Shown here piece by piece: positions 32,301 to 53,529 of a DNA stretch of 64,000 nt. The DNA lies in assembly GCA_009746045.1 (NCBI GenBank), contig RPFO01000027.1:2988109-3052108 (forward strand). The letters are read 5' to 3'. Positions within the stretch are counted from its first letter, which is position 1, and each line of letters opens with the position of its first letter. The position numbers were made by a program, and so were the translations under genes. A model generated the notes under the pieces. That model saw only the letters and a list, made by a program, of their open reading frames with translations. It was not told the DNA's origin and made no database searches. Origin of the DNA: Mesostigma viride (Eukaryota > Streptophyta > Mesostigmatophyceae > Mesostigmatales > Mesostigmataceae).

Positions 32301-35300
32301 AAGCTCTCGCTCGCAGGCGGTGGGCCGGGCCTGACGGTGTCGGCATCGGAAATCATCGTTCAACACTGGACAGTTGGTGCATCAGGGCAGGCTGTCCACA
32401 CTCCGTCGCTGACAGCAGCACGTAAGCTATCTCGTGCAACCCTCCAGGCCTTAGATGTCAGACCATCCACACGTGCACTTTGCTGGTTTTCAAACACAGC
32501 AAGCTGCTGCAGCGACGTCAAAAGCTGCATGTGCGGCACACTTTGTTGAGCACGGGCTGCACGCGCTGAAAGGGAGAAGGCTGTGCGCCTTGTGGGGTGC
32601 TGCCAAGACCCGTTTTCACGGGTGGGTCACAGAAGTACATGAGAATGGCGGGGCTTTGAAGATCGAGACGGTTTGGTCCGACGGCAAGGGAGCGACGTAC
32701 ACCACGTTGGAGGAAGTCTTAAAGTTCATCTGCGGGTGCCCTCATGCGGCTAATGCCTTTGGCCGCGAAAAGTTTTTTCAGGATGGTGCCGCGGCCGACG
32801 CTGAGACGGGGGCGGAAGTTGGATCGAGTCTAACGACGATGGACAACTGCTGAGAGCTGAGAGGAAACGATTGTTGTATTAGCAATAATACAATGAGAGT
32901 GGTGGAAGCTTGAGGGCTCAGAATGGAACGTCTGGGCAAACTCGGGGGCTGCGGCACTCCCCAGTGCTACGCCTATATGCCTATGGCGGTGCTACCTGCA
33001 GCACCTACCAGTGGACAACTGTACACTGCAATGCCATGCGACCACGTCACTAGCATCAACTACACTCGGCCCGTCCAGAACCGGATAACCCGGGTCTGGC
33101 GGGTCGAGCTAGAGTCTAGGCACAGTCTGGCACTAACCGCACATCGGTCCACATGACACCTCAGTACCGTACACCCTGCCGTACAGTACTGAGGTGTCCC
33201 GCTCAGCCGCGGTAGGCAATACGCGGCGCGCAGGCCGGAAATCCGTGTGTCAGCCTAAGCATCTCATCTAACTCCCATTATGTTTTCCTTTCAGGTTGAA
33301 GGCTAGCGACTTCAAGCCTGATCCTGCCCAGCTAGGAGACTGACTCCAAGCTGACTGAGGTGCTGAGCAACTGACACCCATACTGCAACATCTGGACTGA
33401 AAAAGATGGGCCCCAGAACTCGTGCAATACTTGTGATGGTATCACGTTTAGCTCAACATGCCCGGGGAGTTCCTCCTCCTCGCGAGCTCACAAGGGAGAT
33501 AGCTATGCCTGTCTGCCTATCCAGGGAGTGCATCACCAGCCAAGAAAGCCATTGTATAAATGCCAAGGTAACCGTTTAAGAGGTTCCATGTTGTTCCATC
33601 ATCATCGCCCACTCAGAGAAAAAATACCCAGCCAGGCTGGGTCAACTGAGCTCAGGTTACCTGCAACCTGAGGGGTGACAGCTGACAGGTTTATTGCACC
33701 CTGCACTGTCCATGTTGCACCTGCACAACATGTGAGGACCAGCCACCCCTGCCCTGCACAGAGGGGGCTGAAGTCCTAGTGACAGGTGACAGGACTATGA
33801 CATCCTGGACCTGTCCACGTTGCACCTGCACAACGTGTGAGGACCAGCCACCCCTGCCCTGCACAGAGGGGGCTGAAGTCCTAGTGACAGGTGACAGGAA
33901 TATTGCATCCTGCACCTGTGCTGAGCACGTTGTACTAGACAACATGACAGCACCCATGCCTCGACTGCCACTGAACAGTGAGGCCAGGTGGCCCAGGAGA
34001 TCCACAGGGAACTGTGGTCCTGGGTAACCACCTGTCAAGGGAGCTTTGACCCTCCACTTGAATGGGAGGCACCTGAGCCACTGAGCTCAAGGCCAATCCA
34101 CCAAGGCATACAACCCTAGTGGAGAAAGAATGTGAGACACATCCCCTGCCCCCCTATGAAGGTGGGCATAACGAAATTCCATGTTGTTGAAAAAATCAAA
34201 ACAGATTTTATTGTCATAGGGCACGCAGATGCATGAAAAAAACAGACTCCAACCAACCCCCCGTGCTGTAAGCCACAACCTACCCCTTGGACCTGCCCAA
34301 CAAGGGGACTGGGTTACCTAGGCGGCCCTGGTGAACAGGACCCTGCTAGGCGTCCCCCCTATGGGGCAGGGTTGCCTGCTTGCCATAGGGGTTCATCAAG
34401 TGGTACAACAGCTGATATTGTTCAGCTGCCTGCTGAGGCACTTTAGTGAGTGCATCAGCAGCGTTGTGTTTGTCCTCCACGTGACGGGTGGACTCCCAGT
34501 AGGTGGACTCCTGTTTAAGGACCACCCAGTCAAGATCAGTGTGCACAGCATAGGGGTTAGCAAGGAAACTGAGGACTGACTGACTGTCAGTGAGCAAGTG
34601 TGCCACCACCCCAGCATTGCTGCCTGCTTGCATCTGCAGCCAAACCAGCACATGATTCAAGTACCTGGCATGAAGCACTGCTGACACCACTGCCCTGCAC
34701 TCAGCAGCATTGCTGCTGACAGCCTTGTGTCTATGCAACCGGCTGTACCATGAAATGAGAGACAAGGGTGCATCATCATTCTGCACAAAATACAAGCCTG
34801 ACTCCCTTGCCTGCAACTTGGTAATCTGCCTGGACTCCATGGAACTATCCATCATAGCTTGAATGTGAATGGTTTTGTGGAGATCCAAGGAGTGCAAGAT
34901 AAGGGGAGGGCCTTCCTGGAGAGTTTTGGTGATGGCTTTGTGACCTACTTGCATCAAGACCTCATCATCAACTCTGCTAACCACAGCCAGGTGAGGTGCA
35001 CAGGTTGAGCACAACCACCCCAGCTTGCCTCTAATGGTGGGACAGGATCCAGGTTTGATTTTTGTTTGCAAAACCTCCAAGCAGCTGTGCATGTAATCAT
35101 TGCATGGGAGAGTATAGTGCACACACACACTGGTTTTGATGCTGCTGGAGTTGTAACATTGTGCCACAAAATTTTATGGCAGTGGTGCCCAGCTCTACTT
35201 GCTTGCCAATTTCAAAATGCTGTGACACTTGTTGTATAAACTCATCTACAGCACGCCTTGGCCCAGCAATCAGCTGATCATCCCCATGCCACACAAAGGT

Positions 35301-52932: not shown

Positions 52933-53529
52933 GATGGCTCTCATGGTACGTTCTACCAACCCCTGACGTTCATGATCTTGAGCCCCAGACACTTCTATCT
53001 TGGGCAGGTCATTCCTGTCCTGGATGCAGAGAAACTGCTGATCCAGCATTACTTTTTCAATGGGGTGAAAACGTGCCAAGGCTATCTGTAAAGCTCTGTG
53101 CAGCTGCTCTTTATCCATCCCAGGCAGGGGCTCCACTACCACAAACCTTGACCAGGCATCCTTTATGACTAGGTAGTATACCGTGTCCTTCACCACGTGT
53201 ATAACATCCCCAACCAGTTTGCCTCTAGCCAGTGGTGGTGTGGCCACATGCCATTTTCTGGGCTTAGGAGCATATAGCTGACATTGCTCACAGTGCTTAC
53301 GTACGTGCCTGCACATCTGTTCCAGGTCATGGCCTTGTATTTTATTGGCTAGCCTTTCAGCCACAGCCTCATGGCCCATAACCTTGTGCAGTTGCTCTGC
53401 TAGAGCACCATACGTGATTACCTTTTCTGCTGCTGCACTAAGGGAAGCTATGGTGGGGTCACGCATCATGTGTGACAGTGTCATGTCATATGCCACTTCC
53501 CAATCCACATCATCACACTCAGGCAACAC
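52927..53529 (-). CDS. pol: Element 3 integrase N-terminal part, truncated by the insert
   Basis: HHCC zinc domain (HKVMGHE...HCEQC), then the core with D in GDVIH, D in MLDQQF and E in HERQGLVER, spaced as in element 1. The frame meets a stop two codons into the inserted sequence at 52927. In element 1 the same segment continues without a break. Confidence 0.88.
   Translation of the reverse strand: MLPECDDVDWEVAYDMTLSHMMRDPTIASLSAAAEKVITYGALAEQLHKVMGHEAVAERLANKIQGHDLEQMCRHVRKHCEQCQLYAPKPRKWHVATPPLARGKLVGDVIHVVKDTVYYLVIKDAWSRFVVVEPLPGMDKEQLHRALQIALARFHPIEKVMLDQQFLCIQDRNDLPKIEVSGAQDHERQGLVERTMRAIS

Follow-up and report, generated by a model that had tools for sequence, protein, structure and literature searches.

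Long terminal repeat retrotransposons of Mesostigma viride with the integrase ahead of a predicted retropepsin

The superfamilies of long terminal repeat (LTR) retrotransposons are told apart by, among other characters, the order of their Pol domains. A 64-kb stretch of the Mesostigma viride genome (contig RPFO01000027.1; hereafter, the window) raises the question whether this order can differ from the known ones, because a sequence-only reading had proposed that three LTR elements within it carry the integrase before the protease. We examined the window along with the 440-Mb assembly of 2243 contigs that holds it. The three elements, all on the minus strand, are E1 (32816-41561), E2 (43253-57272) and E3 (48961-56813), the last nested in E2 about 0.1 kb downstream of the E2 5' LTR. 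The range first assigned to the elements, 34346..53529, was too narrow compared with the extent of 32816-57272 that is defined by the LTR pairs. Together with a fourth family from the same assembly, they probably represent a new, abundant lineage of LTR elements that is related to copia but separate from it, with the order Gag, zinc knuckle, integrase, retropepsin, reverse transcriptase (RT) and RNase H.

All three elements have gag, a zinc knuckle, the integrase, a domain that we denote DTQA after its central motif, a copia-type RT and RNase H in this common order. In E1, gag (38554..41254) consists of two overlapping frames assigned by position and by eye, with no Pfam match, and is followed in the pol frame by a zinc knuckle CTRC..H..C (38019..38060, by eye; motif from 38060). 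Next come the integrase (36741..37748; motifs 37691-36906), with an HHCC finger, D-52-D-29-E and a C-terminal WHGPA region (rve, E = 0.054, sub-threshold), and the retropepsin-like domain (36129..36431), which reads DTQA ... LLGDPFLSYPG, with AVDTQA at 36404 and LLGDPF at 36209. The RT (35202..35801; motifs 35780-35277; RVT_2, E = 1.7e-8, 34.8 bits against a cut-off of 31.6) has the catalytic box HGDD, and RNase H (34349..34936; motif region 35041-34454) was recognized by eye, after a frame change and with no Pfam RNase H match.

The pattern in E3 is the same: zinc knuckle (53749..53790, by eye; motif from 53790), integrase (52091..53451; motifs 53385-52247; rve, E = 7.8e-6, below the curated cut-off), retropepsin-like domain (51503..51796; AVDTQA 51763, LLG 51568; gag-asp_proteas, E = 0.0035, and Peptidase_A2_2, E = 0.0072, both sub-threshold), RT (50554..51153; motifs 51135-50629; RVT_2, E = 2.7e-7, 30.9 bits, just below the cut-off) and RNase H (49729..50301; motifs 50394-49933; no Pfam match). 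E2 has no rve or RVT_2 match of its own, and its domains were placed by alignment to E1 and E3, to which its integrase core is 49% and 44% identical, respectively, and its RT 40% and 42%. They comprise the zinc knuckle CERC..H..C (48033..48074, by eye; motif from 48074), the integrase in two frames (46408..47345; motifs 47342-46552), the retropepsin-like domain DTQA ... LLGEPFVSYPG (45713..46027; AVDTQA 45994, LLG 45799; gag-asp_proteas, E = 0.16), the RT region with HGDD (44680..45712; motifs 45403-44885) and RNase H (43982..44575; motifs 44638-44180; no Pfam match). In each element, the HHCC finger and D-D29-E, with D instead of E as the third catalytic residue in E2, stand between the zinc knuckle and the DTQA domain. 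Because the three families differ at 39-50% of the amino acid positions in the protease and at 31-60% in the RT, the order cannot be attributed to one rearranged copy, as the sequence-only reading had argued. The order itself, proposed there for E1 and E3 and by position for E2, is confirmed by the motif coordinates, by the alignment and by a copy of the fourth family.

This family was reached through the pattern VDTQA..SII with a CAG codon for Q, which has 121 matches in the genome and none for the reversed control. Eight loci from that pattern share one kind of protease domain, 84% identical to that of E3 in the one aligned. The order was established in one examined copy (locus L070, read more widely as L084), in which an open frame of 1161 amino acids begins ahead of the zinc knuckle and extends as far as the beginning of RNase H. 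Pfam matches to 1010 amino acids of this copy are rve, gag-asp_proteas (sub-threshold) and RVT_2 (E = 5.7e-8, 33.1 bits), in that order.

The families are numerous. Queries with the E1, E2 and E3 proteases each yielded at least 150 copies, 94-100%, 100% and 97-100% identical to the query, respectively, these being the best 150 of 4477, 4362 and 4432 first-look candidates. Such near-identical copies are the product of recent bursts and not independent evidence of conservation; the independent units are the four families. Between families, the nonsynonymous distance is 0.35-0.60 for the protease and 0.23-0.74 for the other domains, and the synonymous distance is 1.8-4.4 in the 5 of 12 comparisons for which it could be computed, as expected if the protein sequence of the protease is constrained like that of the other domains. 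In the searched collections of viral contigs and genome contigs, no relatives of the elements were found. On contig C1588 (overlapping loci L036 and L060), about 1.2 kb separates an E2-type protease from an E1-type protease that reads DAQA, which points to the insertion of one element next to or within another.

Frame breaks occur at several points in the window copies, including the RT-RNase H junction of E1; gag, the integrase and the integrase-protease junction of E2; and the integrase and the protease-RT junction of E3. The E2 integrase and protease frames overlap at 46264-46372, and the same frame boundary recurs in 29 of the 31 copies compared (30 loci, L009-L038, and the window copy). 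A programmed frameshift that sets the level of the protease-RT-RNase H product would account for this recurrence and is compatible with any of the readings considered here. However, 2 of the 31 copies read through (one of them differs from the others further upstream), the corresponding joint is open in E1 and in the fourth family, and the joint lies in simple sequence prone to slippage and assembly errors. We consider regulated frameshifting unlikely; the shared boundary may represent a programmed frameshift, an inherited break or an assembly error. Two further peculiarities of these frames are a stretch of more than 100 asparagine codons in a row in the E1 pol frame (38074-38480), directly before the zinc knuckle, and about 0.35 kb of extra DNA (52600-52930) that splits the E3 integrase and is missing from E1 and the fourth-family copy.

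Is the DTQA domain a protease? The sequence-only reading took AVDTQA followed by LLG as the mark of one, and this identification gains support from aspartyl-protease Pfam matches in all four families, all of them sub-threshold, and from structure neighbours. Two AlphaFold models of the region had a mean predicted local distance difference test (pLDDT) score of 47.1 (poor) and 60.6 (modest). Among the matches listed, the VIA structure neighbours were retropepsins in 50 of 50 cases for each model, and the Foldseek matches in 50 of 50 for the first and 39 of 50 for the second (best E = 0.10); in the structure comparison, the aspartate of DTQA superposes on the catalytic aspartate of the retropepsin neighbours. 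The best neighbours of both models thus agree with the expected retropepsin fold, whereas none of the scores is significant when taken alone. A PDB sequence search with the protease and RT profiles returned unrelated matches only. On the combined, weak but concordant evidence of profiles and models, we predict with modest confidence that the DTQA domain is a retropepsin.

Several observations weigh against this interpretation or narrow its reach. The active-site triplet has Q rather than G at its third position, all Pfam protease matches stay below their curated cut-offs, and the whole frames of E1 and E2 give no Pfam protease match at E-values up to 1; with longer trims, gag-asp_proteas matches only two of the three elements. 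To this are added the quality of both models, with no Foldseek E-value below 0.1, and the chance occurrence of DTQ triplets elsewhere in E1 (in gag, at 38997, and at 36689). Likeness among the 60 protease occurrences compared across the genome is expected, since their loci were selected for matching E1 or E2 best. As for the lineage, all four families come from one genome; in the fourth-family copy, a stop interrupts RNase H, and the surrounding 9.8 kb yielded no LTR pair.

The unusual triplet, D-T-Q instead of D-[ST]-G in all four families, would also be in keeping with a domain that has kept the retropepsin fold as a catalytically dead structural or dimerization module, processing being left to a protease of the host or of another element. 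Among the protease occurrences in loci L009-L068 (61 counted and 60 distinct, one copy having been counted twice in the overlapping loci L036 and L060), one E1-like copy reads DAQA and two of the 59 that keep DTQ carry an extra Q, which points the same way. However, the aspartate is retained in all 60, and DTQA, SII and LLG are invariant across the three window families although their proteases are only 50-61% identical. Moreover, a triplet without G at the third position has a parallel in this genome: the protease of a copia remnant in the window has, by eye, the triplet DSA. Although the loss of catalysis would be easy to reconcile with the triplet, we regard it as unlikely.

A still less probable alternative is that the DTQA domain is no protease at all and that the element either lacks one or carries one that goes unrecognized, for example, in the stretch between the zinc knuckle and the integrase of E2. 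The sub-threshold matches and low-confidence models would leave room for this, but profiles and predicted fold both point to retropepsins, and the aspartate falls at the catalytic position. A scan of the three sense frames of the elements for D[ST]G gave four matches. LADSGSYAD lies in the integrase of E1 (37220) and E3 (52564) and is not conserved as a motif, the corresponding sequence being PHGKSYA in E2 and AESGSYAD in locus L069; HNDTGKIHRC (E1, 36875) falls in the C-terminal region of the integrase. The fourth, QLDTGAVGPM (47618), is a DTGA in the E2 linker between zinc knuckle and integrase and thus speaks for such a protease, but it is followed by neither S-x-I nor a downstream LLG. This linker spans about 230 amino acids in E2, 109 in E1 and 116 in the fourth family, and neither of the two shorter linkers contains D[ST]G. 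The E2 linker is long enough for a protease, and the rejection of all four matches as proteases is by motif, not by structure. As judged from motifs, then, there appears to be no convincing protease before the integrase, in agreement with the sequence-only reading.

The relation to copia was assessed by comparison with elements of the same genome. A canonical copia remnant in the window (16638-18236, minus strand) has gag, zinc knuckle and a copia-type protease in the usual order (Retrotran_gag_2, E = 2.6e-5, and zf-CCHC, E = 0.065, both below cut-offs; Pol_BBD, E = 1.1e-14). Pol_BBD has no match in the DTQA segments or in the scanned gag and linker frames, although the lack of a profile match does not by itself prove a different type of protease; hhalign of the protease alignment against this remnant found nothing (probability 0.1 on a percent scale). 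A copia control (locus L008, which begins inside the integrase) shows rve, SH3_retrovirus and RVT_2 and lacks a protease match in the interval from integrase to RT. RVT_1 has no match in the elements at E-values up to 1. In an RT tree of the four families and eight copia sequences (about four distinct families, including two sets of three near-identical sequences), the four families form one clade, supported at 1.0 and set apart by a branch of about 2 substitutions per site; with copia references alone and no outgroup, the tree shows only the remoteness of the clade from these eight copias. The clade has the RT box HGDD as opposed to HVDD in the copias. That these are ordinary Ty1/copia elements whose protease was moved by a local rearrangement is very improbable: the RVT_2-type RT and the integrase before it are as in copia, but the order is common to four families with RTs 45-85% identical among themselves and 20-28% identical to the copias of this genome, the protease resembles gag-asp_proteas and not Pol_BBD in its profile matches, and the integrase is DD29E as opposed to DD35E in the one copia measured.

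The LTRs add a further character. The E1 pair (5', in sense orientation, 41104..41561; 3', 32816..33273) is 100% identical over 458 bp and is flanked by the 5-bp target duplication GCGGA; the E3 pair (56428..56813; 48961..49342) is 98.4% identical, with the duplication GCCTC, and the E2 pair (56925..57272; 43253..43600) is 99.4% identical, with no clean duplication by inspection. The termini are AGTT..AACT, i.e. AG..CT, set by the duplications in E1 and E3 and by analogy in E2, while most LTRs end in TG..CA. The domain order, the RT type, the duplications in two of the three elements and these ends are read directly from the sequence. By eye, no complement of a common tRNA was recognized as a primer binding site in the elements, and no RNA families or tRNAs were found in the window. 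Tandem repeats at 58196-58983, 41871-42464 and 33675-33919 adjoin the elements or lie inside them. Elsewhere in the window, two open reading frames (ORFs), at 29349-31091 (plus strand; DUF7869 match) and 1727-2446 (minus strand), are alike by eye and suggest a repeated, possibly mobile gene, and a long ORF at 8058-10031 (minus strand) is, by its appearance, presumably a hAT-type transposase. Its antenna genes identify the host as a photosynthetic eukaryote with light harvesting of the green (chlorophyll a/b) type: a search for the chlorophyll a/b-binding family gives 33 matches in the genome, including exon fragments, and the protein of locus L085 is like these proteins, with a long LHCI chain as the top PDB match, in two stretches, followed mostly by single-domain LHC proteins.

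Among known systems, Ty1/copia shares with these elements the RVT_2-family RT, the integrase before RT, RNase H in the last position and the 5-bp target duplication. It differs in the order, with the protease before the integrase, in the protease profile, Pol_BBD as opposed to gag-asp_proteas, and in the TG..CA ends; the elements described here also lack an SH3_retrovirus match behind the integrase core and have DD29E and HGDD instead of HVDD. Conversely, Ty3/gypsy, BEL/Pao and retroviruses share the block of protease, RT and RNase H and a protease like gag-asp_proteas, but their integrase follows RNase H, and RVT_1 is not found here. Foamy viruses also have the protease before RT in one chain, and the structure neighbours include 7o0g and 7o0h, but the foamy virus integrase comes after RNase H. 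The Gmr1 group, which keeps the protease first, is gypsy by its RT, whereas here the RT is copia-type and the integrase precedes the protease. Gmr1 is a Ty3/gypsy group with copia-like order and a known exception for the integrase position (PMC2774666). The BEL/Pao order given in PMC3118150, protease, RT and integrase, is not that of these elements. An algal precedent for shuffled Pol domains is provided by DIRS elements of Symbiodinium including SymbioDIRS-Dnmt3 (PMC5890265), which has a tyrosine recombinase and RVT_1 as opposed to LTRs, a DDE integrase and RVT_2. The canonical orders of LTR elements are stated in PMC2806351, where the selected diatom CoDi copias, algal copia-related lineages too, follow protease, integrase, RT and RNase H; the comparison with them is by description. 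In searches of an open-licence literature library, we found no description of the order integrase, protease, RT, RNase H, although these elements might have been named earlier under the copia label. The proposed clade feature is supported for four families within one genome, while the search offers no proof that the order was previously unreported.

We infer that the protease is active as a dimer and cleaves the polyprotein at specific sites. Gag and Pol would be made as one polyprotein or in two frames, and the protease, sited between integrase and RT, would work as a homodimer in the particle. It might cut itself out or, like the foamy virus protease, which stays joined to RT, remain fused to RT for some time, and it would cut upstream, releasing the integrase and Gag/nucleocapsid. 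RT and RNase H would then make the cDNA, which the DD29E integrase would insert with 5-bp target duplications.

The protease, RT and RNase H form the same block as in gypsy, BEL and retroviruses, with the integrase upstream, and this arrangement suggests two routes of origin: either the integrase moved ahead of the protease in an ancestor with the protease-RT-RNase H block, or a copia-type protease was lost and one of the gag-asp type was gained between integrase and RT. The weak likeness of the protease to gag-asp_proteas, not Pol_BBD, is compatible with both. More tentatively, the order, the DTQ retropepsin, DD29E and the AG..CT ends might define a separate LTR superfamily that is sister to Ty1/copia rather than part of it. 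If so, an intact protease-RT-RNase H block with only the integrase upstream could show a route to the copia order. The existence of an abundant lineage in which the order differs and the protease triplet is odd implies that the order of Pol domains is more plastic than the textbook scheme. The lineage provides a test of how the integrase changed its place and raises the question of how a polyprotein is processed by a protease that it carries between integrase and RT.
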